A stretch of DNA of 64,000 bases from Zhengitettix transpicula (Eukaryota; Arthropoda; Insecta; Orthoptera; Tetrigidae), in the NCBI GenBank assembly GCA_037074705.1, contig CM073595.1, forward strand, positions 51,393,639 to 51,457,638, read 5' to 3'. The position numbers and the translations under genes were made by a program. Positions 21,725 through 58,310 of this stretch are shown here, piece by piece. The stretch's first letter is position 1. Each line of letters opens with the position of its first letter. Below the pieces are notes generated by a model. That model saw nothing but the letters and a program-made list of their open reading frames with translations. It was not told the origin of the DNA and ran no database searches.

Positions 21725-22412
21725 TTTTTCAAAGAATTTGGTTTCATTTTTACTGTACGTATCTCAACACATACGATTTTTATTTGAACTTCTCTCTTTC
21801 TGATCATACAGTTCCCAACATCAAGGCGAAAAATTCACTTCCTTTTTCTTCCAAAAGAAACATTTACAGTTTCCACATCTATCTTGTGTTTTAGACTTGA
21901 CTGCAGACGAATTTTGTTACTGCTGATTGTCACTATTAATTTTAAGTTAACTTGGATTGGCTCATTTACTTCTTGTTTCTAGATCGTCTTCAATGTTCTT
22001 CACATCCTCGCCGGTCTTCACTTCTCTATATAATATACATAGAGAAGCGTGCGAAAAGTCTCTTCAAAATTTATATTAGTGAATTGATCGGCTATAAATT
22101 AAAATAAATAAAAAAAACTGAATTAATGTTTTAAAATTAAAAAGTATTAGAATTCGCGACTTATTTCACACCCTCGTCTACAGACTCTACGGAACACAAC
22201 TTGATCCAATTAAAAGATTTTTCAAAACTATGTTTACATATTTACTCCCAATGGGTTTTTTCAGTCGCCAATTAATAAAATAAAATTTTTAATAAATTCC
22301 TCCATAAATTTTATATTAGGTTATTATACAAGTTTTAATTTAACGTCTGTTTTTGAATTAATAAAACAATTTATGAACTTATACAGACACACTATATTTT
22401 TTATTTATATGG

Positions 22413-22452
22413 TAACGACGTTTCGATACCTATTTGTATCTTCTTCAGGTAT
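22413..22452 (-). ncRNA. Hammerhead ribozyme-like motif A
   Basis: On the minus strand CTGAAGA (22448-22442) and GAAA (22424-22421) flank stem II GATAC / GTATC, closed by an AAATAG loop. After GAAA comes CGTC, so a two-pair stem III (AC/GT) and a GTC cleavage triplet can be drawn. Stem II plus its CAAATAG loop resemble the well-known Schistosoma satellite hammerhead. Stem I is weak as read, which is the main doubt. Confidence 0.55.
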
Positions 22453-22532
22453 TTTCCAAATCAATATAATAAACTAGCTCATAAAATATTAATTTTATGT
22501 ATAGAGACACTTTTTATTTTTTATTTATATTG

Positions 22533-22572
22533 TAACGTCGTTTCGATACCTATTTGTATCTTCTTCAGGTAT
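22533..22572 (-). ncRNA. Hammerhead ribozyme-like motif B (altered cleavage site)
   Basis: This is a direct copy of motif A with identical CTGAAGA (22568-22562), stem II and GAAA (22544-22541). The base run after GAAA is CGAC instead of CGTC, which removes the expected GTC triplet. It is likely a non-cleaving relative. Confidence 0.4.
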
Positions 22573-22660
22573 TTTCAAAAACTAATAATTTTGTTGTGCC
22601 AGTTTATTATATTGTGCCAGTTTATTACATTCATTATATTATATTATATTGATTTGGAAA

Positions 22661-22702
22661 ATACCTGAAGAAGATGCAAATAGGTATCGAAACTTTGTTA
22701 CA
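22661..22702 (+). ncRNA. Hammerhead ribozyme-like motif C (inverted copy)
   Basis: The plus-strand copy has CTGAAGA at 22665-22671 and GAAA at 22689-22692. Stem II reads GATGC / GTATC, replacing one A-T pair of the sister copies by a G-T wobble, so pairing is kept. Downstream CTTT replaces CGTC, so the cleavage region looks damaged. Confidence 0.45.
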
Positions 22703-22727
22703 GTATAAATAAAAATAAAGTGTCTAA

Positions 22728-24429
22728 ATAATGTCATTAATTGTTTATATTTATTATAATTAAGCCATTGGTAAATATCATTCATGATATACGTTTTTTT
22801 ACGTGTTGAAAACAACAATTCAAATGAGTACGCGATTCTATAACTCTCAATATTCTCTCGAATTACGTGTTTATTTGTCTGTTAAAATAGAAAATGCGTA
22901 AAACACTATTATTTTTTATATAATATTTCGCGTCGATGAAGCTTTGGTACTGTTTCGAATTTTTTTAATTTATTTTGTTATTACGTAGTCATGACCTTTT
23001 TTTCTTATTCGAGAGAGTATCGTCGACTTTACAGAACTGAAGGTCGTTTTTGGTTGTGACGCTGGCGGACTTTTGACCGTGCCAAATGAGGCCATGTGTT
23101 GCTGTCTGCGAGGTAATAAAATACTCTAACTGGACGAGGAAACGTTAAATACATTCCAGGGAGAGGCTGTTCTTAAGTATTCCTGTTAAAGGAAAGTTCC
23201 GTCAAGTGGATTTATCGTGGAGGATTCGTCATCGGTGGACTCACTGCTGATATAAAAAAGCGACTTCATAAAAAGGATCGCAAAAGAATCCATTTCAGTA
23301 AATCGATAAAGAACGTGCGCTTGCCTCACTTATTTTAATGTTCAGAGTGACTCACTTCGGTGAATAATCCGCATTCCTGACTTATCGTCTGAGTCTGCTC
23401 AAGTTACGTATCTTAAATTTATTCTACGGTTGATTTTTTAACTTTTCATTCTTAACAAAATGTTGATAAACTAAATTCTTGATCCGTTGCACCATTACAA
23501 ATTTACTGGAACAGTTGCCGCACCTCGTCAGTGAGTCACAAAAACGGCGACAGACTAAACTTCTCAATAGTTATAGTATAAAGAAAATATGCTGACGATG
23601 ATGCACACATAAAGAAGTCGAAATTATTTCATCGTTAATTAAATTATTCCCTTCCAACTCGATCCAATTGCACTCTGTGATATTTTAACAGCGTGGTCAA
23701 AACTCAAAAAGAAATTATCGCAAGAGTCGAACCAGTCAGATAACTTAAGCTCATGTTAGCTAAAGAAGAGGTGGGGGAACACAAAACAATTAAGACGAAC
23801 AAAAAAAATATTTTCTTATAATTAGTGTGAGACGGTTCGTACAGATTAAAAAATTTTCACTTAGCGTAATTGGCGGTCATAATGAGTTTTTTTTATATAA
23901 TACATTACAATAGCTTAAATCTAATTAAAAGAAATGGTAGTACACAAGTTACACTCTAGTTTCCTTACTCGGTTTTGAACCTTGGACTGTAAATAGCCCA
24001 CTGGATTTTACTCACAGTGCGAGTTTAGATAGTAATTTTCTTGGGCGGGGGGGCAGAGCAGATCGAGCAGGAAGAGAGTTGTCAGACTATAAGAACCCTG
24101 AAATTACAGATTGCGATGAGGTTCCGATCTGGGATCCACGAGATAGAAAACGATCAAGAAGACCGCATTGCGTGGGGGAAGGGGTGTTAAGAAACTGACT
24201 GAAGGAAGGAGCTTGAGAGAAATGGAATACAATTCTAATTTAATCTTCTGAAACCGGTGTTACAGCCCCTTTGTGAGCTTTAGACTCCTTCCATCTTGAG
24301 TCTCTATCCATCATGCCTTGTAGGTCCTTCAAAGCTCCATCTAGCCACCGTAGCATGGGTCTTCATTTTCTTCCACTACCTTCTGGCTGTGTCCTAGACA
24401 TTTAAGCACACAAATTATTATAGCATGCT
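22728..24429. other. Gene-free stretch
   Basis: No supported gene or repeat family. A moderately GC-richer patch at about 23000-23400 and a poly(G) run near 24045 are the only compositional changes. Confidence 0.35.
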
Positions 24430-24725
24430 TTTCATACAGTTATATAGCTCATACGTTCTCTAAGGGAAAGAGAATTTAGACTTAATCTGAACTCTCTAGT
24501 GAACTCTCTGTTATAAAATAACGTAAAATGGTAACATTCCTTATATCCTTAGTTAAATAGTGAGTTAATCTCTATTTTCAGATATATTTCCACTAATCTT
24601 CTTTTCTTGGCTGTGCAATATTAATTATTTGTTTTACTTTTTCAAAATTAACCTTTAATCAATTTAAATCTATATACATGTATTTATAGTTGAAATAATG
24701 TCCCTGAACCTAGCTTATATTTTAA
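24430..24725 (+). mobile_element. 3' UTR-like tail of a LINE family, shared with 59305-59610
   Basis: This segment matches, in the opposite orientation, the DNA directly downstream of the ORF2 fragment at 59690-60180. Shared blocks include AATTTAGACTTAATCT, ACTCTCTAGTGAA, AATGGTAACATTCCTT, TTTTTCAAAATTAACCTTTA and ATACATGTATTTATAGTT. Here no coding part is left, so it is a strongly 5'-truncated insertion. Confidence 0.65.
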
Positions 24726-25375
24726 AATAATTCTATAAATTTACTCTGATTTCTTTTGTTGTATCTTCTTTTATTTAATTTGTAATTAAATTGTAATTTC
24801 ATGCGTCTACCACTGGGCAAACTGCCCATTTGTAGATTAAATAAATACATAGACATATGGCACAGCTTGGGCCATAAATTTTCCTCAGGATCTTCCTTCC
24901 AAATTATTTATGTAGAAATTAAACACAGAAAAGGTAAAAAAAAGTTATTACAGCCTCAAAACGTTAATGACGTCAAAAAGAAATTATCTAATTTCATTAG
25001 ATCCTCCTCTAACATTAGGCCGGGCCGTCCACCATTTTTAATCTTGTCTTATACTCGTGGATGAAGCAAACACATGTCGGGTTGTAAAGCATAAAATGCT
25101 TTAAGATTGAAAACTATGCTATAACATTCGTAACTTTTAGATTATTTAGGCAAGATTGCGTTGGAGTACAGAAATATTTTTTTAATAATTTTTTTATCTC
25201 CGATAACGATTAATATTTCATAAGAAAACCAAAATAATAAGTCAAAATTTGGTGATTCGTTGTTTGCAAATTTTAAAGATTTAAATTAAATTAATAATCG
25301 TAAAAGAAGGAATTAAAATATGCATGACGTATGGTAAACAAAATAAACTTTTAATTTTTTAAATAAAGGGATTAA
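24726..25375. other. Gene-free stretch
   Basis: AT-rich. An open frame at 24801-25064 on the plus strand has no recognisable motif and is not annotated as a gene. Confidence 0.35.
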
Positions 25376-26076
25376 AGACATCTCGAAAAATAAAGGTATT
25401 TATTTTCAATTACAACGGAGTTACAAATTACAAAGAAATTGATTACAGCGGGTATTACAATTACAAAATCAGATTTATTTTAATTTCTGTTTTTTTTTAC
25501 AGCAGACTTGGTTTCAAAAGATACAATGTATTTTTGTTTATTATTTCCATGCTGACCAATACTACGCACTGTCACACAAATTATTATTTCCTTCAACTGC
25601 AATATTCCTATATATTTACACCAAGTAAAAAATGTTTTCACAAATTGTCTGTAATTATATTGCATTTCACTGATTTGTGACCTGAAGTGTTTTTCAGTTA
25701 TCCCAAACATATTTGTTTGCGTTAGCAGAACTAGATTAAATATGGCGGACGGTCCAGCTCGTATTAGAGGGGCCTTAAATTTGATTTGATAGTCCATGAT
25801 TACAATACATACGTTTATCATTTATACTTGATTGAAAGATTACAGTTGATATAAATATATAAATATTTTACTCGTATAGACGTATGTTATTTTTATGGCT
25901 ATTACTGGTAGGTGTACATAGTATTTTTTTTTATTATGTACGTATAAACATAAAAGCAATTTTATTATTTTAGTGTAAAATTACGTAAATAAAAGTTTTT
26001 TCTTAAATTCTTTTTAGTATAGGTAATCAGGGAACGAAAGCTCGCATACAACATATGGTTATTTACTTCAAAATTT
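25376..26076. repeat. Tandem duplication, copy 1
   Basis: This matches the next 680 bp (26086-26765) along almost its whole length, with a constant offset of about 715 bp near the left end. Both copies start close to AAAAATAAAGGTATTTATTT. Copy 1 has an extra block of about 17 bp near 25745 (around GCGGACGGTCCAGCTCG). A minus-strand open frame of 113 codons (25821-25480) has no recognised motif; small differences between copies do not look like protein-level constraint. Confidence 0.85.
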
Positions 26077-26085
26077 AAATTTAAG

Positions 26086-26765: not shown

Positions 26766-27658
26766 CCATAGCCTTGAGTTAGCCTTGAGTTCTTTGCTAT
26801 TCTTGGTGTCATATGCAGCCTTGTCAATACAATTAAATAATAATACATCATGGTGTAGTTATGAAATTTGTTAACAATGGTTTGGGTAGAATATTGAGAG
26901 AGGAATCTACGCGGAAGGGAAGAATCGTGAAAGAAGAAGAATTCAACTGACGACAGAGCTGGATAATTGCCTCGGCTTGGGAACAACTTACAGCAAATTT
27001 GCAATTCCACGACGTTAAGAGTCGTCGTTGTGATTAATTGAAAGAGAGGTTGTTGCGCAGATGACTAAGCGAGTCTTTTCCCGAGTGACTCACGCGTGAT
27101 GTATTCACACGGCCCAGTGACGCCGTGACGTGCGTGTGTGCGTGCGTGTCCCCGGAATGTCTGCACATTGCGTAACACGTCTGACGCGCATGTTCCGTGC
27201 ACGCTACAATTGCGAGACTCGCTGTTTAATTCAGCTTTACGCAAAACGCCTCAAGTGAATTACCTCGGCTGCTGTTCCACGCAGATATTGTTTAACTCGT
27301 GAACACACATTGGAAATATGATTAGTCCATTGCTCGTGCATGGTCAGATGTAAATCAGGCTTCTCAATTCATGCATATTCCGTAAACGGTAATGTCGTAT
27401 CTGCTGGCGACTGTTCGTCCATCTTGGATTTCAAATTTAAAGTCAATGGTGGGGTTTGATGCAGAGAGAATATTTTTGAAGTGTTCCGTAGTCTGGTTTT
27501 GAGGCGAAGTTGGCGATTGGGATTATGAGAATAAGCTGAACTTAACTGTATTGAAAAATGGAAAATTAAGATAAATGAGACGAAATCAGTTCAAGACGAC
27601 TAGTGTTCCCGTCAGTGTTAAACAATATTCAAATCCCAGTAAAGATTAGATTAGATTA
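26766..27658. other. Gene-free stretch with a CpG-rich patch at about 27000-27420
   Basis: CpG dinucleotides are frequent at 27000-27420 (for example CACGCGTGATG, GACGCCGTGACGTGCG, GACGCGCATG), unlike the flanks. Such patches can mark regulatory DNA or young insertions. I see no exon beside it. Confidence 0.35.
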
Positions 27659-28233
27659 GTCTCTGAAGTGTAGTGATGGATCCAAGTTACATCGACGGTT
27701 ACGTTTTCGCGCAAAAAGTCTTGTGGGTTACGCCTAAACATTGCTTTTCTGCGTTGAAATGTTTTTCCGAATCCGTTTTTGGTCCAGTGTCAACAGTCGC
27801 GGCACCCATCGCGCTCAAAGCTTTTTCATTGTCAGTTTTTCATGGAGGATGAAATGCACTGGTTCAGTTGAGAAGCCTACGGTATCAGCTACCTCACGCA
27901 CTTTTAGTCTGCGATCTTCCATTACCATATTGTGAACTTTTTCGATGTTTTCCTTGAGTGGTGACCGCAAGTGGGCGGCCGGAGCGAGTTTTTATCTTCT
28001 GTGATTCTGCGACCTCGTTTAAAGTCATTAATCCAGAAGTAAATAGTCTTCAATGCTTGTGCAGAGCCCGCATGAACTAGATCCAATTCAATTTTGATTT
28101 GTGCAACTGTCCAACCCTTCAAATGAAAATGTTTAATGACAGCGCGATATTCGTTGTTTTTTTTCACATTGTCTACACCTGAATACACATATAACACTAC
28201 AGAAGGCTGCCAACAATAAACTACGACTGGCAT
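27659..28233 (-). pseudogene. Decayed mariner transposase, 5' part
   Basis: Read on the minus strand from 28233, the frame gives NEYRAVIKHFHLKGWT and ALKTIYFWINDFKRGR, the paired helix-turn-helix DNA-binding part of mariner transposases, then MEDRRLKVREVADTVGFST and KLTMKK. An in-frame stop follows LTMKKL, and the reading frame shifts before the block with FRRNPQDFLR and VTVDVTWIHHYTSE. That last block contains the first catalytic aspartate of the DD(34)D triad; the family usually has DETW, here DVTW. The copy ends abruptly near 27650, so the two remaining catalytic aspartates are missing. Non-functional. Confidence 0.85.
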
Positions 28234-29349
28234 ATGTTTAAAACTTTTAGTAATATCTAAAAAAAATCATGTTTACCAACAATGGCGCAAAAGTGAAAAA
28301 TTTATCAGACTTATCGATTAACCCTCGTAGATCGTAAAATTACGAGTAAATGCAATTAATAACAAAGAAGAAAACTTAGGAGACTATAAATAATACCATT
28401 TCGATAAATTTATTGAGTCGCAGAACGATAAACAAACTTGTTGCCTTTTAATTAGGAAATATTTACGTTTTGCCTGATAGTTAATTTTAGTTCTTAACGT
28501 TTTTAAAATAAAGTTTCTGGAGGTTCATTCATAATATTCGCCATGGGCTTTAATCTCTTTCATATTAATATTTACAAACGTTCACTTTCCTGAGGATATG
28601 TACTTATAAACTGACACTTCTGAGTAAACAATCCAACAACACGTAACTGAAACGAAAATACGGAAAATTGTATAGTTTCCCCTTGTTTCTGTCAACGTTA
28701 ATGAGTTAATGACCAAAGGGGTTAAAAATTCAGTTAAATCGGTGGTGGTGTTTTTTTCTTGTGGTTGGTAGCGACAGCTGAGCGTTTAACATTTTCTCTG
28801 GATCGCTGATATATTTTTATTTTACGTGGTTTTCTTAGCCTCTGTTAATAATTTTTGTCTCTATGAAGAGAGTTTTAAACTCGGACACAGGAAACCGCCT
28901 GTTTATGTCGTTTGCATGGGATGTGTCCGATGTGTTTACCAGACGATTGTCGAGCGTCAACGTCTGAGCCACGAGTTATTTATTTCCATTTATTTAGCTT
29001 GAGATAGTAACATAGTAACAAAAATAAATAAATCTAAATACAAAACATAGCTTACAAATTATTATTTCTAGCATACACTCTGATTATTTTCTTAAATTGA
29101 CTGATACTTGAGCATTTTTTATTTCCAAAGGTAGCTTATTATTTTATTTCTACATTCTTAGTAATAATTTTCCTTATTCCTAGTTTGGTAACTATGTACA
29201 TCACATTTATTACTCACTAGATTCTTATGATAACACGGTAACTTATCCTTCTCTAATTTAAATATAAACAACATTACATCACAAAATATTATCTGCCTTA
29301 TATCCAGCCAATTTAGTTCACACAGCATATTTGTGCCACTAGCATATCT
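28234..29349. other. Gene-free stretch
   Basis: AT-rich with short GC-richer segments. No supported coding exon. The left edge could hold the missing terminal repeat of the mariner copy but I could not identify it. Confidence 0.35.
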
Positions 29350-32143: not shown

Positions 32144-32188
<45 letters not shown>

Positions 32189-32193
32189 CATAT

Positions 32194-38700: not shown

Positions 38701-41700
38701 TCTGACTGAGATAAGTTATCGTGGAGGGTCTTAGGGATCGCGCATTCGTGAGATTGGCGGAGACATGGACAAAGCCCTGTTCAAGGAACTCAGCCAGGAT
38801 GTGCGCGAGCAGTTCCTCATGGTAAGGATCCTTCCGTACCCTCCTCTTCCTTCCCAGAGTCGTGGGAACCACCGGTTCCGTTACTCAAGTGTCCCCTGGT
38901 TTGGAATGGTGCCAAGGGTTCACGCTCTTAAGGATTTTCCACTATACCAGCTTATTTATGACTTAAGATCCTGATGCTTCGTCCTTCTTGATGTCAAGAC
39001 GTATCTTGAGAAGTTTAAAATGTTTAAAGTTTAAAATGATAGTGCTTAGTGAAATTATCTCGTCGAACCAGGTGGACACGTCGCTCCGTAACATAACGTA
39101 TGACCCCACATCAGTTTCCTCAACGTAGGCGTTGCATAAAATCCTTCTCGGGTTTCTAGACGTGCACTGACCTTCACTTCGGAACGTGAATTTTTTTTTG
39201 GAAATGGGGTATTATTATTCTGATTTCATTGACATACAAATCATTTCTCTCCCGCACAGTACATTCAATTGTATCCGATCATTTGGCCTCAAACACCTGT
39301 CAGACCTTGGTTGATTAGAGTAGGTACACTCCTGCGTGAATGTACAATATCCGCTGCTGCTCTCATTGATTCACCTACTAAATAGTATGTATACTGTTTG
39401 AAATGTTTTTTCTTCACTCTTCATTTAATTTTGGTTATTTGATACTTGACTTTGGGAAAGCCCTTCAATATCAGAACTGTAATAAAATTATTTTTATTTT
39501 GCGGAAAATTGGACGTAAATACTTAGACCTTAGATTGTTTTCTTGACCGCTTTAATATTTGATAATTGAGTAAACTATATATATATATATCAGTTAATTA
39601 GCATATACTTGCCCACTGTAGATATGAAATTGTATTATGATAATTTTTCTATGTGGATACATTATTCATAACTCGCAGGTTACATAAAATGTTATATGAA
39701 ATTATGGGAATATAATTAAAACTGCATTGAATAATTAAGATAGACAATACAGTCAAGAAAGGTAATATAAATACCACACAACGTTTCTGGGTTCCTTTTT
39801 CTCTTCGTCAGGTGCTAAGAAGAGCCTAGAGAAACATAACTGCACTGGTCAGTTGACAACATTTTAAGACCAGTGCAGTTGTGTTTCTCTAGGCTCTTCT
39901 TAGCGCCTGAAGAAAGGGACAAGAATCCCAGAAACATTGTGTGGTATTTTATATTACCTTTTTTTTGTCTGTATTGGCTATCTTTCTTATTCTTTATTTT
40001 CAATCAGACGTAAATTTTTTCATTAAAGCTGCATTGAGTTGTTATAATTTGTGATGTGAACTCCTTTTTTTCTGTAGGCGTCAGGTTGTTTGCTGCTAGA
40101 CACTTACTGTAATTTTTATTTTCTTGATTCACTAGCCTTAAAATTTCATTTTATCTTGTTTCAGATTGACAAAAATGGAGATGGGTATATCGATTTGTCC
40201 GAGTTGAAGGAAGCTCTAGATGTTTGTGGCTTCAAAATTCCAGGATGGGAAGTGAGGAAACTAATTTCAGAATTTGACAGCCGCAACACAAACCATGCTG
40301 GTAGACTTTCGTTTGATGAATTTGAAAAGGTTCATATTCTTTTCCCCATCCACTGCAGCTTTTACCTGATCTTTTTCTTATTTCAGTTAAACTTAATTTG
40401 GTTCATTTTTTTCCAGTTGTGTGTTGATTTGAAGGCAAATGAAGTTGCTAGTACATTTAAAAAGGTCGTGTCAAAGAAAGAAAATCTTGAAACTTTGGGA
40501 GGAATGTCAGATGCATCCAGTGAGGGAACAACACATTCAGTTCGGCTGGAAGAGCAACTTGCATTTTCAGATTGGATCAACAGTAATCTGAGACATGATC
40601 CTGACCTCAAGCACCTATTGCCTATTGATGCAGAAGGCAAGGCATTGTATGATAAAGTAAAAGATGGAATTTTGTTGTGGTAAGTAGTGTATTGATAAGT
40701 GAAAGCTTTGAACCATCTGGTCGAAAATTGCCAAAGAAACCCTTTAAATTTATTCACTTTAATCATTTTGACTTGGGTATATAAATTGTTTATTTTAAAA
40801 TTGGTTTTTAAATTCCTTTTTTATTGTTTAACATCTTTTCATTAAAAGATCAATTCTCTTTTCATCTACAAATTAACTTTCCTAACCACTGTAAACAATT
40901 TGAGAAATTGGCCTTGTTTCCTTCCATTTGCTACACATCAGTTAATCTTTTATTTTGTCTGGTTGTGATAAAGTACCCTTTTCAGCATACAGTTTGTAAT
41001 TTCATAAAGATTACAAACTATTTAAAATGTGTCTTAGATTTATTTTTCACAGTATTCTTTCTCCCTGTCTTTCGAAAATCGTTGAGTAATTTTAATCATA
41101 TCCATGTGACATCATTGTAATACCCCATCCTTCGAGTACCATTTATTCTGCAGTAGGGCTGTAAATTCATTTTACAGTTTCTTCTGTTATGTGTAGCAAT
41201 CATATTAACTGGGTACAAATCCTTGTTTCTGTTATGCCCCTGTTTTTATTCCCTGTGATATAGAAAATGCTTCAGTTGTTCACCCTTATATTAATATACT
41301 TTTTTCACTACGAACTTAGTAATTCTTATTAATTAATGAGGGAATTTCATATTCTGCTAATGCCAGACAGATTTTTCCTTTCCTTAAGTCATATGCCTGT
41401 CTCAATTATTTGTAATATATGCTTTAATCACACCATCTTTGTTAGGTATTTAGTGTGAAGAGGAGTTCTCAAAGGCTTTGGAAAGGACTTTACATTGTCT
41501 AAGCCATGAGCACTCTGCAGCAGAAGGAAACTTTACTGGCTCTGCTCGTTAATGCTAAATAATTTCTATAATAATCTTTGTGTACAATGTCCTGAAAATT
41601 GAATTTGTTCTTTATAGATAACAAATCTGAATTAATTCACCAATCAGTTCTACTTTAAATCCAATTCACAGTGACATTTTGTTGGTGAGAGGAATTGATA

Positions 41701-42945
41701 CTTGCTAACTTTTTCTAACAATTTCTAGGAAAATGAAAAATTTTGCTATTTACAACTGCTTATACAATTCAGTTTGACTTCTGAAAATTGATGTTATTTT
41801 GAAATGTTTTATATTATTATTTGGCTTCCCCATAGGACTTATAATAATATATTGCATATTTGTTGCAGTAAGATTATTAACCATTCGTGTCCTGACACAA
41901 TTGATGAAAGAGCTATCAATAAGAAAAACTTAACCCTCTACACCAAGCACGAAAATCTAACCTTGGCATTAATATCATCCCAAGCTATTGGATGTAATAT
42001 AATTAATATAGATGCTCATGATCTTTCTAAAGGAAAACCTCATTTGGTACTCGGACTATTGTGGCAAATTATTAGAGTAAGTATTTTGACATTTTGATTG
42101 CTTTTGGCATACTTTTCTAATATGTTTGATTTGTTGGGTTTTACTAACTCTAAATGGAAACTTTCAGATAGGGTTGTTTAATCAAATTACATTGGAGAAC
42201 TGTCCTGGACTTCCTACACTTTTGATGGATGGTGAGCATATTGAAGATCTTATGAAATTATCACCTGAAGCCATTCTTCTAAGATGGGTAAACCACCACC
42301 TACAACGAGCTGGAGTGGCCAGGTAATTCATTGGGTGCTGATGTTTTAAATCATGAAACTAGCTAAAATTATGTTGAAAAATTTTATTATGCAATGTATT
42401 ATCTGCATTGGCTATTTAATGGAGTCATATGTTTTATTGTATGCCAGTTCCAGGGACATTTAACAGAACGCCACACTCATAACAGCTATTCAGCTTTTTA
42501 GACTTCGTACGTCTTGTGGTTTGACCATAGGTCCAAATAAAAGCTATCTAAATTAATACTTTATTATTAGTATGATATCAATTTTGTGCTATAATATATT
42601 TTAATGAACAGGAATAGAATAATTTTTTCATTGGCACTATATATATATATAATTGCAATATTGGTATGGAAAGGAAAGAGAGATAGGTGGTGGCTTACTT
42701 GAAAGTGAAGTGTGGTGTCGCCATAAGGAACTGAAGGTTGTTCTTCCGCAGCCGGCCGGTGCACGGAATGGTATAACACTCCTTCCTGAAGAAGGAGGCT
42801 GAGAGCCTCCGAAAATTTGAAGAACAACCTTCAGTTTCTTATGGCGACACCACACTTCACTTTCAGGTAAGCCGTAGCCTATCTCTCTTTCCTTTCCATA
42901 CCAATATTGCAATTATTTTTGACAATGTCATATCTTTACTAATAT

Positions 42946-42993
<48 letters not shown>

Positions 42994-43612
42994 ATTAGGA
43001 GAATCCATTAAGGGATTGTAACTAATTTGGTGACAAAGTCACATCCAAACTTGGATAGTGAGGAAGGATAGAAATAAATAGGAGAAATAGGAGGATTACG
43101 CTTTATGTGAATTCATATGCTCAGGCGAAGAATTACACACATAGAAAAGCATATATATATATACTGAGGAAGGATAGAAATAAATAGGAGAAATAGGAGG
43201 ATTGTGCTTTATGTGAATTCATATGCTTGGGCGAAGAATTACGCACATAGAAAAGCATATGTTCAAAGCAGAGAGAAGGATGGAAGAAGAAGGAAAGACT
43301 GAAAATATTTGACCCAGGCGGGACTTGAACCCACGTATTCTGCTTAGTACACAGACGCCTTAACCATCTCGGCCACCGGGTCAAGTTCCTGACCAGGCAA
43401 ATATAGACAGTCTTATTGTGGACAATTAATAGTTTTTAGTGGAGGAATGGATAGAGTAGAGGGAATGAAGTATTAGGAGCTTCCATTAAGGAATAAATAC
43501 AATATTAGGAGATCCATTATGCTTTTCTATGTGCGTAATTCTTCGCCCGAGCATATGAATTCACATAAAGCACAATCCTCCTATTTCTCCTATTTATTTC
43601 TATACTTCCTCA

Positions 43613-43671
<59 letters not shown>

Positions 43672-46600
43672 TTAGTTCCTTAATGGATTCTCCTAATATT
43701 GTGTATATATATATATGTGTGTGTAAGGATTATGTAACATTATCTAATTAATTAACTCATTTGGACATGAAATAGTGATATTATATCAAATTCGTGTGGG
43801 CATAAGCCCACTTCCTCAGAGTACAATTGCATTGAACATCGTGCTGACTAGGTGTGATCATATTTCACAATATAAAATTAAGAACTGGTCATTTGTATAG
43901 AGCTCTTGTTGTTAGCTCCCTTCACTCAATGATATTGGTGGAAAGCCAACATTAATTTTTATTGTAGTGTGCTAATTATTGTTTATATAGTTACGTTGGT
44001 ACTACTAATGTTGATATTCTCTATCATATTATTAAAATTGTAATTGATTGAAAGTATTAGCATGAATTTTCTTATACCTGCACTTTCTATTGAAACATTG
44101 ACAACTTTGATTTCAATATTTGGAAATATGAATGGCTTGTCATACTTCAATATTATTTTTGTCTGTCTGGTGTTTGTTATTCTTGTAATGGTTTTAGACT
44201 AGCTGAAAGCAGTAAATAAATCATGTGTTGACTGATAATGCTATTTTCCTGTATATGAAAAAATAGTACTTTGGTTTTTTAACTGTACAATGATGCTGTT
44301 AGCATGATATTGTTCAGACTTTTCATTTGTTTTGTAGACGCTGCACTAATTTCCAAGGGGACATAGTTGACTCTGAAGTATATTCCTACCTTATCAAACA
44401 GATTGCACCCACAGATAGTGGTGTTTCAATGGAGGCATTGATGGTAAGTGCCAGCATTTAAAAGTAAAAAGATTAGACAATTAATGAATGTGGAATGTTA
44501 AATTTTCCATCATACTGTTTTGGATACTCAAGGAGCCAAACCAGCTGGCAAGAGCAGAAATCATGTTACAACAAGCAGCCAAACTTGGATGCCGCAGCTT
44601 TGTCACACCAAGTGATGTTGTGAATGGGATTTACAAATTGAACTTGGCGTTTGTTGCAAATTTGTTCAATAACCATCCTGGCCTTGACCAACCAGAAGGA
44701 GAAATAGAAGGTTTGGAAACTTTGGAGGAGACAAGAGAAGAAAAGAGTAAGTTTCCATATAGTTGCATACATTTGCACACAATTTGACACAATCAAAATA
44801 ATTTAGGTTTATGGGAAAGAGTTATTGTCGATTTGATAAGAATTAAGAGCCATTCCTATATTTGACAAAGTTTTGTTCGAAGTTTCAAATTGCTCCTCAT
44901 GTTTCTTGGCTTTAGATTTACTCTTCAGTCAAGTAACATGAACAGTACATCTAGCTCTTGAAGGAGATATTACCCTGATTCCTATTACACATGAAAATTA
45001 GAACTAGATGTTCTGTCAGACAAATAGTTATTTTCAGGTAAACCATGATAATTCCTCCCACTTTCTTATCCATATTTGTTATATATCAATGAGTATTTTA
45101 TACCATTATTTTTAACTGTTGTTTTATGTAACAATAACAATTATATTTCAACAGCGTACAGAAATTGGATGAATTCCATGGGTGTGCAGCCATATGTTAA
45201 CTGGTTATATTCTGATTTAGCTGATGGCCTTATAATATTTCAGTTATATGACATAATTAAGCCAGGAATTGTCAACTGGAGCAAGGTTCACAGGTAAGTA
45301 AACTATATTTCATTTGAAAACTTAAACACAAGAAAATTACGATATATTAACCCTTTGCACTCGAGTGCTCTGCTATGGAGTCCTCGAGTGCAAAGGGTTA
45401 AAGTAACTAAACTTTTCTTCAGTTATTCAGAAAAGGGGATCAGTTTGAACTCAAAATATGTTTTCTAGTTTATAGTTAATATCCTTTGGAGTTTAAGGTT
45501 GTTGGTTGAATTACTCCTCTAATATATACAAATAAAATATTCTTTACATTCATTTCTGTGGAGAAAATAATCAAATATTTGTAGTAATCTATTTGTTACC
45601 TATGTACTGCATAGTGTTTCAAATATGAAATTTGAAAAATCATTTAAGTGCACCCAGTTTGAAATAAAATGGTTTGAATTGGGAATTTTTTTTACTGAAA
45701 TGATTTATATCTGGAAAATATCACAAATATCATTATGAAAATTCACAATAATTTGGATGGGCACCAAACACAAGATCAGTGTGTAGCTACAATATTTTTG
45801 TTGCTAATTAGAATATATGATTTACTCATGCACATTATAATAAATAAGTTTTTTTTAATTCAGGAAGTTTTCGAAACTGAGGAAGTTTATGGAAAAATTG
45901 GAGAACTGTAATTATGCTGTTCAACTTGGAAAACAGCTAAAATTCTCTTTAGTTGGGATTGCTGGCCAAGATCTTAATGATGGAAATGCAACACTGACTC
46001 TAGGTATTACTGTTTTAAAAATTTGGAACTTATAATTTATGCCAGAAGTAGACTTTTTTTGTTACTTAAGATATTGGTACATTCTGTATATTATGGGAAC
46101 CATAATTTCTTTATGAAGTACATTATGTTTATCTGAGTTACTTAATTGTGGAATCTCTTGATTTTTTTCCTGATTGTATGCAGATATTAGTTACATAAGT
46201 ATCTTAGTGCGAATTAAATTAGGTAATGGTGCACAATTGTTAGTTGATTTAAGATGATTACTAGTTAATTTTTTCAAAGAAAAGTGCTGTGATTGGTTAA
46301 ATCTAGACATTTTATTCACATGTGGCTTGCACTCACACAGTCTTCATTTTACAATGCAATTTTTACTGCTTCCAGGGTATTGTAATATAAATACAGAAAT
46401 ATATTCTATAAATTTCTATTTTTGCAGCTCTTATATGGCAGTTGATGAGAGCTTATACTCTTTCAATTTTGACCCAGTTGGCTAATACTGGTAGTCCTAT
46501 TGTGGAAAAAGAAATAGTTACCTGGGTAAATGCAAAATTGGCTCAGGCTAATAAGAAGAGCTCCTTGAAAAATTTTCAAGTAAGTTTCGTAAAGTGCCAA

Positions 46601-51148: not shown

Positions 51149-54100
51149 TTATTTCCCTCCACTGACGAAGGACGATGTTGGTTGCTGGTTGGCGACGATC
51201 GGCACACCCTGCTTCTGCTGGTTCTGGATGTGTTGCTTATTGAGGAACCAATAGGGCTGGCGTTCACGAGGCCAGCTGGCGACACGGGACTCCAGCTCTT
51301 CCTGTGGGGTCAGACTCGAGGAAGTCGAAGACGCGGCGGCGGCGTCACCCACGCGGTTGGAAAGGTCTGCGTCACCGGATGAGTACTGGGGGAGTACTCC
51401 TGGGTAGCTACCCCAACCCTGGGCGTACGGCGACACGAACTGCCCGTTCACCACGTACGCCATCAGGAGCACCGACACCACGGACAAAGGATTCTGCGAA
51501 TGAGACAAAACAGTCAACATCAAGGATTCAGCCCTAAGGTTAAAAGGGAAAATAAAAAACATTCATGATTATTGTTGGCAATCTCTCCGCGTACAAAAAT
51601 GTCCTCTCTCTACACGCATCATTATTTGGGATATGGTCACAAAAACTGGGGTAGAATCGACACACTGACCACGTGATCCAGATTGTGTCGTGTGAGACGA
51701 CAGTTGTCTCGGTAGGCCAAGACCCTTCAAGGGCTGTCGTGACAAGGAGTAGTAGTATTGTTGGGGGATAGTCGTAGGGAAATTGTGCTGATTCACATTT
51801 TCAAGTTGTTAGTTCACATCGGGAAGTTCCACGTTAGCCTTCAATCATGTGATTAAATTATTCTTGGAAAAGGAAACGTCAAGGTCGGATCTGGGCTTAA
51901 ACACAAAGTGGTATTTTCGCCGATTATCAAGACATATACAAGTAAAAGGAATCATGACTAATTAAATGACATTAAGAAAACTCATTTCCCTTTTTCAACG
52001 TTCAATTTATAGTATGTATTTATTTTAAATATATATATATATCGAATTATTGGAAACAGCAACTACACCGAATCAAGAACAAATTCTTTCCATATATAAT
52101 TTGGCCAGTGTTGCCTTATTTCCATTCTGGAACCAGAAGGTTCCATTTTTTTCAATCGTATCCTTCCGTTTCGCAATCTTAAAATTTTTTAAGCAACTTC
52201 TGACCTCAGATTCAAATAATATTTTCCTTCCTGATGCTTTGGAGTAAAAAGGAAAAACAGATAAATATCTGGTTTCTACGTAGCCAATAATATAACTATT
52301 TGCGTTCAAAGTGCAGAGAAATCCAGAGTAATTAGACAAGGTTTTTCTTTCTTCGATATTGTACATTTTATATATTTGTAGGAAAACTAAAATAATCTCT
52401 GTGATTAAAATGAAACCCGCATCGTGTAATACACAATCGGATTTTTTTTGTCATACGTATGTACACGTTTCAATTAATTTTGGCTCTTCGAGCCAGGCCG
52501 CCGTTTTTATTTTAGGCTCCTACGTCATTTCACTATTACTACGTCCGCATTTCGAATTTAATTAGACCTGAGTTTCTAAGCAGAAACAGCCATCATCGTA
52601 TCGTGTAATGAATTGTCAGTCATTCGGGATTTTATAACGGTTTATATGCTGCATTAAAGTTTTGTAATTACATCTGAACTTTATGAGCGCGCAGTTGACA
52701 AAGGAAAGACGGACTTAACAAAGCCACATAGACATCCGTGCCTTGATGTGGAAAGCCTCATCGCCCTATATAGACGACAAAAGTAAACTGTGACATATAT
52801 CTACAGTGAAAATTATGTTATTCATGAATGGCCAAATAAGTCAGAATAAAAAGTCTAATAAACGAATTACAAATTTGTTAGACAAATACGACGTTTCGTC
52901 ATTACATTATGACATCTTCGAGTAAAAAGAATTGGTATGCAGCCCAGAGATGTCTCCTAATTAATTAAAACCTGAATAAGTCCTCATATCATGGCGCCGT
53001 GTTTTGAGCGGCCGTTGCATGAGCGGACAAACCTGCCCCCACCCGATGCCTTCCTCAATCCTGACCGCTGAGCGACCCTATTAAATTAGGGTTGAAACTT
53101 TGAGATTGTTTTAATGTTTTTTTTCTATTATAATGTTTAAAAATTTTAATTAATAATAAATTTATAACTAAATAGGATGTTTTCATATATTTAAGGACGT
53201 CAGATAAAAGATTTGTATCTTAATTGATCATTTCTAGGCATATTTATTAAACAAATCACTAACAATTGGAACATTTTTAGATGTATTTAGAAATTATTAA
53301 TACAGCTAAGTTTCTGAAATGTTATGCATTAAGCTTGTAATATATTCACTTAATGTTAAAAACAAAACTGATTATTTAAGCAATAAAATTGCTCTTCCGA
53401 AAATGTATATCTGCTCGCTCAGCGGTCAGAATTGAGGAGCGGATCTGGGGGGGGGGGGAGTTCTGTCCGCTCATTCAACGGCCGCACATAGCACGGCACC
53501 TGTGGAACGAATTTGTAATTTTTGAAACTTTTTGTTCTGCCTTATCTGGCCTTTAATTATTACACAATATTATCAGCCAATATTTACCAACATGAATTAA
53601 ATACCGCGTAATCATTCCGAGGCACAAATATCCATGAGTTGTCAGAAGTATTTCTCGAGTTTTGTATTTAATTCATCTCGGGACACGTAATCGAGTAATA
53701 GGGCCACCAGGTTGACGGGGTGCGATACTAAAATAACAGGTAAATTATTCTGAAGTGGGAGTTGTTATAAAAGGACAAGCACTTAAGTTAGATAATTATA
53801 GATATCAGATATTTAAGGAGTAGTGACGTCAGTTGAGACATTAAACTCAGATCAGATAGAAAAGGAGAGAACGGTTATCAGCTGTTACATAATGAGATAG
53901 ACAGACCCCGACTGACTTCCAACCAGCGAGCGTCCGCATCCAGAACTGACGCTGCAAGCATAATTCGCGGCATTTGAAGGTTTACGTGAGCAGTAAAGTG
54001 CATACAGTCGCATAACAATGGCCGAAGATTTTATCGTTTTATAGAGGTGAATATTTTAAACCCATCATTTAGAAATCTTTTTTTTTCTTCAAATAATTTT

Positions 54101-55275
54101 ATCTGAATCCTATGTATGTGTGTGTGTGTGTCTATGTAATTACAAATGCAGCCTTAAATGAATATTTTCTGTTAAATTTATTAGTGAGTGAATCAAGGCG
54201 AATATTACATTTTATGGCTTCTGCATCTCATAAAAAGCTTCAAGGACTCGTTCTCTTCGTGAAAAATAAATGATTATGACAGGCTATTGTGTATTTATCA
54301 TCTGCCATTTTCTGCGCCACGCCTCCACGATTATTCAAGTCCACATTGTTTTCCCCGAGACCTTCGTTGCTACCGTGACAGATTTATTACGTACAATCAG
54401 GCAAGACAGGGCTCGAGCTTAACGACGGAGCAAGTAAGAAGTAAACATACGCATTCCTGGGACGAAACTGTTATCTAAGTTGGGAACAGGCGTGACAGAT
54501 AACATTTGTTGCTCTTAACAAATTCGTCCTGGTGACATCAGAACCGCAGACTACGTACGCAAAAAAAAAAAGTGCAGGAGTCGACAATCTGGGACTCAAT
54601 TAATTCCACGATCATCGGTTCTCCAGCATCAACAAATAAACCCTGCTAAAATTCATGAACCGCACCAGCGTGGAATCGTGACGATATTATTATTCTCAAT
54701 CACGATCTATCTACGACGTCACGAAAATATTCACCTTTGTTACGATATCAAGGATTGGCTCCAGATTCCCGAAGTGAATTTGTGAACTGTCGCAGTTCAT
54801 GGAAAAAAAATTTTAATGAACTACAAAGAAAACCAGAGCTGAACGAAGTGGTTTCATCAGCGACTTCTGTTTTCATTACAACGGAAACGGCGAGTTAGAA
54901 CTCAAACGAATTTTCAAGTAAATCGACCATGGATGTCGCTTCACTTCATAATGACATATCTGGGTATTGGGGTTATTAAAACAAACATGTTGAGAGTCTG
55001 GATCTGGAGAGACAGAGGGAGGGAGGGAGAGAGAGACAAGGAGTGAGAGAGAGAGATACAGAGAGAGACAGACAGAGATACAGAGAGAGAGACGGAGAGA
55101 GAGAGAGAGACGGAGAGAGAGAGACGAAGAGAGAGAGACGAAGAGAGAGAGACGGAGAGAGAGAGACGGAGAGAGAGAGACGGAGAGAGAGAGACGGAGA
55201 GAGAGACGGATAGAGAGAGAAACAGACAGACAGACAGAGAGAGAGACAGACAGACAGACAGAGAGACAGACAGAC

Positions 55276-55308
<33 letters not shown>

Positions 55309-57586
55309 GAGAGACAGAGAGACAGAGAGAGAGAGAGACAGAGAGAAATCATAGATCAAGAGTTGTAATACAAACGCCTATTTAAATTTTAAGCAGGGGA
55401 AAAAAATTGCCGAGAGGCATAAGTGGTAAGTTGAAGAATAAGCAACCTCTTTAATAACGGATGACCATAGTATTTATAATGCGGGGGGGGGGGGGATCAG
55501 AAAAAGGGGCTTCACGACGACATTTATAGCCACGCTGTGAGGTAAACAGGTTCATCACTCTAGTTAGGAATGCGCTTAGAAGCCGCCGACAAAAAAAGAT
55601 ATAATATATATATATGTATATATATATTATAGCTGTTTTAATTACAATAGAAATGGCGAGTTTTGAAGTCAATCGTCCATGGATGTCGTTTCTGGAAACT
55701 TTGTTCCTTTCGTCAGGTGATTAAAATAAACACAAGAGCCAGGAATTGTGCTTTTTAATCACCTGACGAAAGGAACAAAGAGACGGAGAGAGAGAGAGAC
55801 GGAGAGAGAGAGAGAGAGACGGAGAGAGAGAGAGAGAGATAAAATAGCCAAATTAGAGATAATGAAGTGGCGATATAAAATACCACACAACGTGTCTGGA
55901 AACTTTGTTCCTTTCGTCAGGTGATTAAAATAAACACAAGAGCCAGGAATTGTGCTTTTTAATCACCTGACGAAAGGAACAAAGCTTCCAGACACGTTGT
56001 GTGGTATTTTATATCGCCACTTCATTATCTCTAATTTGGCTATTTTATCCAATTATTAAATTTTAAAACACGCGTATCATATTTTCATTTTGAATATTAC
56101 GTTTAATTATATAAATTTTTTAATGTAATTTTTAGTGAATAATTTGAATACGCAACTTAGCGTCCCTAATTTTTTTTGGGACCTCTTCAGGTGTTGAAAA
56201 AATTGTAATTTCATAATTAGATGATTAATGTAGTCCATCCTTCAGCACTTCAATAGTCGAAATGCTTTTATTTTTACAAATATGTATTACTCTTATTTCA
56301 TATGCATAGAAAATAATTTGAATCATTTGGCAGTGCAAAGTTTCTATTACTATTTTTTTATATTTGAATTTGATTGATATAACTGTTACTGGGTCCAGGA
56401 CGGGCATTCAAATTAAACGTGTATATTTTGGAAATTTTCTGAAAAGCGTCAAACGATTTTCGATCAGAATTGATTGAATTTAAAGTGTTTTAGAGTTTTA
56501 CCAACAAAAGGTCGGAAAAGTGTCCTCAATCCGGCTACAGCATCGGAATAAGTTGTTTTTTTTGTTTGTTTGCAATTGGAGACGTTACGAATCGTTGGTC
56601 GATAACAATGTCACAATGCTCACAAGTTGACTGTGAAATTAAGGATTGTACAGTCAATTTCACAATGTTTATTAGTCAGCTTGTAAAGTAAGATAAGATG
56701 TAGTCGCATTTTGCCCAAATCAGCAACTTATTTCGCGCATGACGACGTAAGAGAATAACAGAACTATTTCTGTCTCTCGTGCACTTCAGGATTTTGAACC
56801 GGAGCGTAATGGAGTAACTATTAACGAATCTGAGAGATAGCATCCGAGCTGAGCCGATAGAGTTTGGAAAAAATCTCCATCAGTTCTCCAGGAGACGAGA
56901 AGTCGAATCGTCATAAATTATTTATGAACGGTTCTTGTTATCCGAGCTGACGTCAATCATCCACGTTGTCCCAGATTATTAGAATGAAAACCTCGACAAA
57001 TAATTCGAACGCAGCACTGATGATTGCTTCTTCAACGACAACTCGCGTCAAAATGGTTACACGCGGTTTTTAACTCAAATCGGTAACTAGAGTAAGGAAT
57101 AATTCGCAAAATTGACTCCCAGCTGATTCGTTGTTCAACAAAATGACCTTTCCTCGTGGTCGCGCTTGTGATTTATTTGTATTTCTAGTCTGATTCACCC
57201 CGCGAAGCTGACGTTGGCCCAATATCTTGCCAAATCAGCTTCGGTAAACAAGACAAAGTCCGCGGACCATGACTGACGAGCCACGGCGTACGCGACTAAT
57301 GACGTTTCTCACGACACATTCTCTGGGGGAGGGGGGGGGGCTGTTCTGAGATGCTAAAGGGGAAAATACGTCAGCGGTCGTGGTCAAGACACCAGCAACT
57401 GGGAAATTCGGACCTCAAATTATGAAAAATATTCGTCGTGCAGCTGCGTCTGCCTCAGAACTGGAAGATCCGGAGATCGGCAACCCACGAGGCGCCTCTC
57501 CCTCGACCTAATGACTTTCCAGATATAACGGTAACGTTTTTAGGTTAAAGCGTAAGTCTTAAGGAAGCGCGCTGCGTACTCACCAT
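51149..57586 (-). CDS. Small secreted protein, possibly cuticular (two coding exons)
   Basis: Exon 1 contributes only the ATG (57586-57584), followed by donor GTGAGT. Exon 2 (51493-51149) follows acceptor TTCGCAG and ends GGGAAATAA. Joined, they give 115 residues. MNPLSVVSVLLMAYVVNG is a clear signal peptide with likely cleavage before QFVSPYAQ. The mature part has no cysteine: it is tyrosine-, glycine- and proline-containing near the start, has an alanine/serine run (about 50-60), then the block WPRERQPYWFLNKQ, then a glutamine-rich tail. An ATG-only or very short first coding exon, a long intron 1 and a TATA promoter are typical of insect cuticle and other epidermal secreted genes. I do not recognise a named family; cuticle is an inference. 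AATAAA overlaps the stop codon (51153-51148), and another is at 51108-51103. Confidence 0.8.
51494..52990. other. Intron of the secreted-protein gene, 3' part
   Basis: AT-rich with no supported exon. At 52885-52925 it includes a degenerate hammerhead-like segment (listed separately). Confidence 0.45.
52887..52925 (-). ncRNA. Degenerate hammerhead-like segment
   Basis: On the minus strand GAAA (52897-52894) with CGTC after it, and stem II GTCAT / ATGAC, are preserved. The 5' core reads CTCGAAGA (52922-52915) instead of CTGANGA, so it is disrupted. Confidence 0.3.
52993..53500. mobile_element. 508-bp MITE with long GC-rich inverted repeats
   Basis: Terminal arms at 52993-53075 and 53415-53500 are inverted copies with modest divergence, both containing GCGGCCGTTG, ATGAGCGGACA and CTGACCGCTGAGCGA. 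The right arm has a 13-base G run where the left arm has GCCCCCACCC on the other strand. The 340-bp core is very AT-rich and non-coding. The sharp contrast between GC-rich arms and AT-rich core is unusual. No target-site duplication was identified, and the superfamily is unknown. Confidence 0.75.
53501..54850. other. Intron of the secreted-protein gene: nothing firm
   Basis: Mixed-composition intronic DNA; a TG microsatellite near 54117-54130. No exon support. Confidence 0.4.
54862..54945. repeat. Repeat segment, copy 1 of a pair flanking a GA-rich array
   Basis: Contains ATTACAACGGAAACGGCGAG and CCATGGATGTCGCTTC, also found with changes at 55633-55695 (ATTACAATAGAAATGGCGAG, CCATGGATGTCGTTTC). 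The GA-rich array lies between the copies, about 770 bp apart. Confidence 0.6.
55006..55347. repeat. GA-rich array with GACGGA and GACA interruptions
   Basis: A purine-rich tract built of GAGA, GACGGAGAGA and GACAGACA units. The long LSLSVCLS open frames on the opposite strand are its translation, not a gene. A related block (GACGGAGAGAGA) recurs at 55781-55839. Confidence 0.95.
55633..55839. mobile_element. Truncated foldback copy with GA array inserted
   Basis: Segments at 55692-55735 and 55755-55780 form inverted arms (CTTTGTTCCTTTCGTCAGGTG against CACCTGACGAAAGGAAC plus AAAG). The right arm breaks off into a GACGGAGAGA repeat. It is the same family as the complete element that follows. 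Confidence 0.65.
55685..55720 (-). ncRNA. Hammerhead ribozyme-like motif (truncated element)
   Basis: CTGACGA (55716-55710), stem II GGAA / TTCC and GAAA (55692-55689) are intact on the minus strand. Downstream CGAC replaces CGTT, and the partner of stem I is lost by fusion to another repeat. Probably inactive. Confidence 0.45.
55885..55924 (-). ncRNA. Hammerhead ribozyme-like motif with GACA core, left arm
   Basis: Stem I TCAC / GTGT (three to four pairs), CTGACGA (55920-55914), stem II GGAA / TTCC and CGTT are present. The normally invariant GAAA is GACA (55896-55893), expected to abolish cleavage. Confidence 0.45.
55963..56002 (+). ncRNA. Hammerhead ribozyme-like motif with GACA core, right arm
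   Basis: Mirror copy on the plus strand: TCAC at 55963-55966, CTGACGA at 55967-55973, stem II GGAA / TTCC, GACA at 55991-55994, then CGTT and GTGT. The same core change is in both arms, so it predates the palindrome or was copied between arms. Confidence 0.45.
56049..57580. other. Intron of the secreted-protein gene, 5' part
   Basis: No supported exon. At about 56165-56205 a strongly degenerate relative of the hammerhead module is visible on the minus strand (CTGAAGA with GTCCC / GGGAC but no GAAA). From about 56700 onward the sequence is less AT-rich and CpG-richer, approaching the promoter. Confidence 0.4.
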
Positions 57587-57660
57587 CGTCGAGAGCTGAG
57601 AGGAACGACTGTGACTGTTCCGTCGAGTCGGCTGCGGCCTTTATAAAGCACGTCCGCGCC
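57587..57660 (-). promoter_or_regulatory. TATA promoter of the secreted-protein gene
   Basis: On the minus strand a TTTATAAAG box lies at 57647-57639, preceded by GC-rich sequence. About 30 bp downstream TCACAGTC (near 57615-57608) resembles an insect initiator, which would leave a short 5' UTR before the ATG at 57586. The positions are consistent with a strong, tissue-specific promoter; the start site itself is inferred. Confidence 0.65.
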
Positions 57661-57699
57661 CCTCCACTCTTCCAGCAACAATTACAAGCGTATTTCTCC

Positions 57700-58170
57700 A
57701 AGTTGTCGGAAGGAACACGGATACTTCCCCGATGCAAACATTTACTGGGTCACTCACTCGCTGACGCAAGACTTGACGAAAGCGGCAACAGTACGCTCAA
57801 TGTACAAATATGTAAATATAGCTAATTTCAGGAAAGAATAGGTCAAACTTTTCTGCCGCGTCGAAATGTTTTCCTTTCGAGAAACAATCGTCTTGACACT
57901 CACTCGGGGAGATTTCCCGTACGTAAAACAAAAAGCGTGACATACTAAAAATCTGTTTCGCCGCCTGAAACCTTGTGAAATCCACATTTCTACTACAATT
58001 ATACACATTATAACTCATTTTTAATACTCATATAATAGGATTTCCTACGGTGGTTCATAATAATTTTTCTTGCAGGAGTACTTGAGGAGATCAGTCACAT
58101 TGCAAGCGTCGTTATGAACTATAACTCGTAAAATGAAAAAAAATTTACGTCTGATAGAAATTAATAAATA
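57700..58170. other. Upstream flank of the secreted-protein gene: nothing recognised
   Basis: No supported gene. Minus-strand open frames around 57754-58018 overlap in different frames and have no family resemblance. Confidence 0.4.
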
Positions 58171-58173
58171 CTA

Positions 58174-58310
58174 AAGATAGCCAATTCAGACAAAAAAAAG
58201 GTAATATTAATACTACACAACGTTTCTGGGATCCTTGTCCCTTTCGTCAGGTGCTAAGAAGAGCCTAGAGAGACACAACTGCACTGGTCAGTTGACAACA
58301 CTCAAAAGCT
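58174..58310. mobile_element. Single-arm copy of the 39.7-kb foldback family
   Basis: Nearly the same sequence as the left arm of the element at 39737-39984, from AAGATAGCCAATTCAGAC through GGTAATATTAATACTACAC to ACTGCACTGGTCAGTTGACA. The second arm is missing. Confidence 0.75.
58215..58254 (-). ncRNA. Hammerhead ribozyme-like motif, well preserved
   Basis: On the minus strand stem I GCAC (58254-58251) pairs with GTGT (58218-58215), including a G-T wobble. CTGACGA (58250-58244), stem II GGGA / TCCC and GAAA (58226-58223) follow. A two-pair AC/GT stem III and a GTT cleavage triplet complete it. Apart from the short stems, every core position expected of a type I hammerhead is present. Confidence 0.58.

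Follow-up and report, generated by a model that had tools for sequence, protein, structure and literature searches.

Hammerhead-like modules in foldback elements of Zhengitettix transpicula as probable pseudo-LTR fragments of Penelope-like elements

The locus and its hammerhead-like elements

The window, i.e., the whole 64,000-nucleotide stretch of contig CM073595.1 that was analysed, contains a mir-184 microRNA precursor (1144-1223, plus strand; 59.8 bits, above the Rfam gathering threshold), plastin exons at 40.1-40.7 kb, whose few named protein matches are mostly arthropod plastins, and a tRNA-Ser with anticodon ACT (43309-43383, minus strand). This anticodon is unusual for tRNA-Ser; the gene lies amid near-identical 100-bp repeats, direct and inverted (43055-43260 and 43518-43616, by self-BLAST), and is possibly a repeat-borne tRNA copy. 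An ORF at 27922-28266 on the minus strand, which we take to resemble a mariner-type transposase, gave no Pfam match. The elements that carry hammerhead-like cores are the following.

22356..22755: A-family element, two minus arms (in tandem, 120 bp apart) and one plus arm, head-to-head (self-BLAST, sequence)
22417..22448, minus: A1 minimal hammerhead core to the predicted cut, CTGAAGA-A-GATAC..GTATC-GAAACGTC; weak stem I (descriptor)
22537..22568, minus: A2 minimal hammerhead core (descriptor)
22665..22696, plus: A3 minimal hammerhead core; G-U in stem II (descriptor)
39718..39737, plus: left TSD copy of the B element, agreeing with the right one at 16 of 20 positions (by eye)
39738..40024: B-family arms paired head-to-head next to plastin EF-hand exons; the right arm has the tail, the left is short
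39780..39811, minus: B1 decayed hammerhead core, stem II broken (66-column model)
39907..39938, plus: B2 minimal hammerhead core, predicted cut after 39938 (descriptor)
40025..40044, plus: right TSD copy of the B element (sequence)
42649..42916: C-family foldback, left arm without a core
42786..42818, plus: C minimal hammerhead core (descriptor, minimum-energy fold)
43783..43819, minus: D, isolated and weak hammerhead-like site with GTGGGC/GCCCAC and a stem I run of 1 bp (descriptor)
55667..55736, minus: E1, hammerhead region within a duplicated palindrome core, stem I absent (descriptor, model)
55687..55780 and 55891..55984: 94-bp palindrome core in two copies, 99% identical, on either side of a GA microsatellite
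55838..56089: E-family head-to-head pair whose arms are 99% complementary across 93 nt
55889..55920, minus: E2 minimal hammerhead core, GACA variant (descriptor, model)
55967..55998, plus: E3 minimal hammerhead core, GACA variant (descriptor)
56143..56210, minus: F, degenerate hammerhead-like copy (23.1 bits, 66-column model)
58138..58300, minus: B3, lone B-family arm that includes the tail; its core runs from 58250 to 58219 (descriptor, self-BLAST)

The motif CTGANGA occurs 49 times on the two strands of the window, against 22.7 expected. A descriptor that demanded CTGANGA, a stem II of 4 bp or more and either GAA or GACA selected 12 window sites; 100 first-order random sequences of equal length yielded 0.72 on average and never more than 4. 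Ten of the 12 were judged to be genuine hammerhead-like modules, in agreement with a reading of the sequence alone, which had proposed ten or so segments combining CTGANGA, a stem-loop and GAAA or GACA: 22448, 22568, 43819 (weak), 55716, 55920 and 58250 on the minus strand, and 22665, 39907, 42786 and 55967 on the plus strand. The sites at 26947 (plus) and 10806 (minus) also pass the descriptor and were judged chance occurrences.

A sequence model of 66 columns, built from seven window copies in which both stem I and stem II are present, matched the window 11 times at E<=10, seven of these matches being its own building copies. Outside the building set it recovered the decayed copy 39811 (39766-39831, minus strand; 48.9 bits), which fails the descriptor, E1 (55667-55736, minus strand; 43.7 bits) and the degenerate F copy; a marginal match lies at 21319 (19.0 bits, E 0.08). 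The window copies represent a few families rather than ten independent events: A (22.4-22.7 kb), B (39.8 and 58.2 kb), C (42.8 kb), E (55.7-56.0 kb), the weak D (43.8 kb) and the degenerate F (56.2 kb), with B and E related in the window self-BLAST. Within each palindrome both copies read outward. The sequence-only reading had placed the modules in introns of two genes; this holds, with some probability, for the B element, which lies just upstream of the plastin EF-hand exons and is therefore probably intronic.

Core architecture

The hammerhead position names A9, N7 and H17 are used here. The core runs stem I, CTGANGA, A (or AA), stem II, GAA, about 5 nt, stem I. All ten sites have an extra A (AA in B and E) inserted after A9, ahead of stem II, and helix III is absent, with about 4-5 nt in its place. 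The bases that separate GAA from stem I are ACGTC, ACGTT, ACATT or AATTT in most copies; the exceptions are ACGAC (22568 and 55716, minus strand), ACTTT (22665, plus strand) and TTTG (43819, minus strand). The longest unbroken run of stem I is 4-5 bp in B, E and C and 2 bp in A, falling to 1 at 43819 and 0 at 55716 (both minus strand). As ACGT, ACAT or AATT and one further base stand in for helix III in most copies, cleavage is predicted 25 nt past CTGANGA in the A, B and E cores and 26 nt past it in C. The extra A after A9 departs from the textbook hammerhead core; a viroid hammerhead described by De la Pena and Flores in 2001 reportedly carries an extra core nucleotide.

The sequence-only reading had made an Rfam type I or type III hammerhead match its test. 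No hammerhead was found above the gathering threshold in the window, nor at E<=10 in 22-60 kb and three short stretches, so that, taken literally, the first outcome named as refuting the reading did occur. This null result is tempered if, as is likely, the Rfam hammerhead models expect helix III, which is absent here. An ordinary, canonical type I hammerhead is ruled out by the missing helix III, the extra A and the lack of an Rfam match; thus, from the proposed type I spacing the type I order stands, whereas helix III is missing and an additional A follows A9. Rfam matches on the foldbacks, such as MIR1512 or MIR2606, lie far below gathering and reflect the long hairpins. A CUGANGA plus GAAA core in type I order without helix III is what characterizes the minimal hammerheads of Penelope-like elements (PLEs), and the window modules fit those found in the pseudo-LTRs (pLTRs) of such elements.

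Genome-wide copies and stem II

In a scan of the 993.6 Mb assembly, the core pattern CTGANGAAN{10,20}CGAAACG had 9053 exact matches, against 35 for the pattern reversed; a pattern scan of viral contigs gave 0 matches. Stem II was examined in the first 100 matches listed, all from contig C1 and unselected for pairs 2-4. These three pairs were all formed in 67 of the 100 copies (shuffled mean 30%, maximum 41%) and, counting the 77 distinct stems once each, in 57% (shuffled 26%, maximum 39%). Pair 2 was A-T in 39, G-C in 26 and T-A in 16 of the first 100 copies listed. Roughly a dozen of these copies (L074, L076, L082 and others) form a further hammerhead-like family with stem II GATGGC/GCCATC.

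Within the B family the picture is different. The B table excludes 14 pattern-seed copies and, of the remaining 48, another 24 of other length. Among the 24 copies retained, the stem II pairs form scarcely more often than independent columns predict, and the third pair is broken in 16, so that within-family covariation fails in B. The four stem II pairings noted from the sequence (GATAC/GTATC, GGGA/TCCC, GGAA/TTCC and GGAGGC/GCCTCC) are indeed present, and the covariation claimed for them holds between families and not within B. The free core position N7 differs in 6 of the 24 copies, and the rest of the core letters are almost invariant. In the 52-nt table, position 23, which belongs to stem II, is hypervariable (G 8, A 8, T 4, C 4), although its partner is C in 23 of 24 copies.

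Association with GIY-YIG open reading frames

The GIY-YIG search yielded at least 61 matches (150 scored among 1787 candidates), of which 30 loci were examined; 28 were retained after removal of L048 and L049, which repeat L047. At 22 of the 28 loci a same-strand B arm is found no more than 800 nt 3' of the GIY-YIG domain. Corresponding counts within 800 nt were 0 upstream on the same strand, 1 downstream on the opposite strand and 8 upstream on the opposite strand; at 800-1500 nt they were 1 (same strand, downstream), 1 (opposite, downstream), 3 (same, upstream) and 2 (opposite, upstream). The eight opposite-strand upstream arms are as expected of inverted pLTRs beside truncated copies.

One broken ORF beside a B arm, translated with X at its stops, matches 126 proteins. 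The ten best matches all carry PF00078 and PF26215, and PF01541 is found in 17 of the 120 matches listed, 13 of which also have PF00078; we take these families to be reverse transcriptase, HTH_animal and GIY-YIG, respectively. A Pfam search of the broken ORF, in pieces and whole, gave no reverse-transcriptase match, the only hit being GIY-YIG besides a sub-threshold unrelated family. Seven PLE peptides from ORFs of the GIY-YIG loci revealed no PLE coding remnant in the window.

The position of the B arm 3' of GIY-YIG ORFs implies that at least B is the PLE's own terminal repeat. Linkage of the repeat to GIY-YIG ORFs, one of them with reverse-transcriptase-type homologues, was found for the B family only; E is a BLAST relative of B, and A and C are joined to it by the shared motif and layout. 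We consider it highly probable (about 0.9) that the modules are fragments of the pLTR (5' end) of endonuclease-containing PLEs with minimal hammerheads lacking helix III. The suggestion that PLEs are the relevant context is thus borne out by the linkage at 22 of 28 loci, while that of a separate non-coding foldback class is not, since at least the B family is a PLE pLTR and the head-to-head layout is a described habit of PLEs. A foldback or MITE-type DNA transposon is rejected for the B family, which has two end classes and the GIY-YIG linkage.

Arm orientation, arm ends and target sites

Head-to-head pairs outnumber tail-to-tail pairs by 23 to 4 among B-type arms (some arms standing in several rows), 16 to 1 among A types and 7 to 0 among the first 100 matches listed; same-orientation neighbours are also common (15, 19 and 3, respectively). 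There is partial overlap among the three samples. L048 and L049, which repeat L047, are left out of the A- and B-type counts, and L065, L068, L084, L088, L089 and L090, which overlap other loci, are left out of the A-type counts. According to PMC3846280, head-to-head is the most frequent layout of inverted PLE pLTRs; one of the inverted copies may carry a 31-bp tail, TSDs occur, and some families have a palindromic pLTR 5' end.

Among 94 B-type arms, outer ends fall into two main classes, 37 at query positions 148-164 and 36 at 180-191, the latter class being cut off because the query ends at 191; five arms end between the classes, three at 136-145 and 13 at 114 or less. In the window, only B2, B3 and E3 actually stop near the long end, reaching a common CATT at 111, 112 and 116 nt past the core and then diverging, while B1 and E2 stop about 68 and 76 nt past the core. 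The right arm of the E pair extends further and aligns with the B tail. Short and long arm ends correspond to the optional 30-40 bp tail of PLEs, within a query that stops at 191. Both classes were mixed (short with long) in 7 of the 11 pair rows in which each arm's end could be classed, or 6 of 10 without the second L022 row; L009 and L028 (wide gaps) and L034 (classed differently with another query) are doubtful rows. With mixing in 7 of 11 rows, a rule that exactly one arm is tailed is unsupported. Sister-test site patterns for B1, B2 and B3 (5, 5 and 10) were star-like and uninformative.

On either side of the B element at 39738-40024 stand ATTAAAACTGCATTGA and ATTAAAGCTGCATTGA. In the TSD test, 2 of 8 pairs (this element and L020) scored above all 56 mismatched pairs and 6 of 8 did not; among 636825 16-mer pairs tested at comparable spacing within the window, 7 agree at 15 or more positions.

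Possible origin of the head-to-head pairs

PAc, the Poseidon element of Anolis carolinensis, has a hammerhead at the pLTR/ORF junction and cuts and extends both target strands (PMC11167929). Its reverse transcription starts 111-118 nt into the ORF, the tail being the stretch between two start sites (PMC11167929). By analogy, the PLE RNP would nick both target strands, and reverse transcription would be primed on each nicked strand, starting at either of two internal RNA sites about 30-40 nt apart, whose difference would constitute the tail. Each cDNA would run from the outer edge (the RNA 3' region) inward to its 5' end, and two 5'-truncated cDNAs would meet in the middle of the element as a head-to-head palindrome with ribozymes reading outward. 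We tentatively propose, at somewhat less than even odds, that head-to-head PLE arm pairs are fossils of such both-strand priming, each arm being separately templated and started.

Self-priming, or a mixture of the two processes, would rival this proposal. In that account the PLE origin is the same, and a strand folds on the palindrome at the pLTR 5' end and copies itself. Some B-type arms do begin inside the palindrome CTCAAAAGCTTTTGAG, with 25 of 94 starting at query 8-11, its centre, and PMC3846280 argues for self-priming on an antisense template. However, self-priming implies the same end for both arms, and the rows with mixed ends, some of them doubtful, speak against it; arms ending at different sites thus favour both-strand priming. 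Paired B arms are no more alike than unpaired ones (identity 0.836, n=12, vs 0.832, n=524), whereas paired A-type arms are slightly more alike than unpaired (0.845 vs 0.799 and 0.898 vs 0.849, in 7 and 6 pairs), as hairpin copying would also give, so that arm identity is inconclusive as to mechanism. On balance we regard self-priming as rather unlikely.

Regarding cleavage, the C left arm begins exactly at the predicted cleavage site (42746 matches 42819), and because of this exact coincidence it may be a rare case of an arm templated by ribozyme-cleaved RNA. Both C arms share the outer end (by eye), unlike B and E. Ribozyme-cut junctions were rejected as evidence, as B arms display no enrichment of starts at the predicted cut: none of 94 starts falls at query 97-106 (cut after 99), and five fall at 90-96, where the 42 starts beyond 20, if evenly spaced, would contribute two or three. 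Tandem units of 90 nt ending at the cut in L009 are better explained by slippage on the palindrome CAGAAACGTTTCTG.

Predicted folding and activity

The minimum-energy fold of the C core consists of stem I (CUUC/GAAG) and stem II. The B3 and E3 cores fold with both stems plus extra pairs across the core; in B2 only stem II forms, and A1 has neither stem. Only 8 of 200 shuffles were as stable as the C core, against 47 to 139 of 200 for the other four. The whole B foldback is predicted to form a hairpin of -158.3 kcal/mol (shuffles -57.7); since its arms pair with each other, the core is buried, and according to this model the hammerhead is probably masked by the long hairpin in foldback copies. 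The PAc hammerhead did not cleave without its protein and cleaved with the protein present, its mutation left insertion in vitro unaffected, and RNA-seq reads ending at the cut were not found (PMC11167929). Following the literature, the hammerhead may serve processing of the PLE transcript, as dimers or with protein help; the dispersed copies would most likely be inert relics, judging by the modelled folds and the PAc analogy.

Two other readings of the modules can be set against the PLE interpretation. They could be retrozymes of the non-autonomous kind, or else a distinct foldback class, that PLEs mobilise in trans, the ribozyme giving rise to small RNA circles. The window copies are short and without PLE coding sequence in the seven-peptide search, a 120-bp tandem is present in the window and a 124-bp tandem array in L010, and PMC7761336 proposes PLEs as helpers of non-LTR retrozymes. 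Still, the B arm sits 3' of GIY-YIG ORFs, the Rfam search found no canonical hammerhead in the window, and helix III is absent here, whereas most invertebrate retrozyme hammerheads form a stable one and make loop-loop contacts (PMC7761336). We consider this reading improbable. The L010 array (1963-2793, minus strand) comprises seven tandem units of A-family arms at about 124-bp spacing.

Slightly less probable again is that the motif is selected as a DNA or protein-binding sequence, its hammerhead resemblance being incidental. The third stem II pair left open in most B copies, the buried core, the 2-bp stem I of A, and the fact that C alone of the five cores forms both stems cleanly and is more stable than shuffles all speak for it. 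N7, however, varies whereas hardly any other core letter does, stem II covaries between families, the C core folds into stems I and II, and the equivalent PAc motif was cleaved with its protein present, all of which argue against mere resemblance.

Relation to known elements and significance

PMC7761336 describes minimal type I hammerheads by the thousand in many metazoan genomes, usually without the non-conserved nucleotides of helix III; most are dispersed and some lie in PLE pLTRs. The minimal PLE hammerheads of Cervera and de la Pena 2014 and Lunse, Weinberg and Breaker 2017, as relayed in PMC7761336 and PMC6155905, share with the modules described here the type I order without helix III, the pLTR location and the thousands of dispersed copies. 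Pen2a of Adineta vaga (PMC3846280) likewise combines head-to-head inverted pLTRs, an optional tail and GIY-YIG, with a TSD (seen here in 2 of 8 tested pairs) and, in some of the Penelope families, a 5' palindrome; unlike Pen2a, the window copies lie without a coding remnant nearby in the peptide search. The PAc hammerhead cuts 26 bp past the ORF start (PMC11167929), similar to the core-to-cut spacing of 25-26 nt past CTGANGA found here, and the two arm-end classes resemble its two reverse-transcription start sites and 30-40 bp tail. PAc differs in host and subfamily, and the element described here is known from its sequence alone. Non-LTR retrozymes of metazoans are, according to PMC7229834, also short, non-coding and hammerhead-bearing in tandem units, with a canonical hammerhead, loop contacts and tandem repeats giving circular RNA; in contrast, the hammerheads here are minimal, often head-to-head and, in B, linked to an ORF.

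Both PLE pLTRs with minimal hammerheads and inverted pLTRs are already published. As a known retroelement explains the pattern, it is not reportable as a new ribozyme-bearing transposon class. Both-strand priming as the explanation of inverted PLE pairs was not found in the literature searched, whose coverage is partial, and is possibly new. The value of the locus lies in its material, as 9053 exact core matches and many paired arms are enough to test the origin of PLE inverted repeats, and the same material could test whether ribozyme cleavage ever marks insertions. If true, both-strand priming would answer the standing question of PLE inverted repeats without hairpin self-priming.
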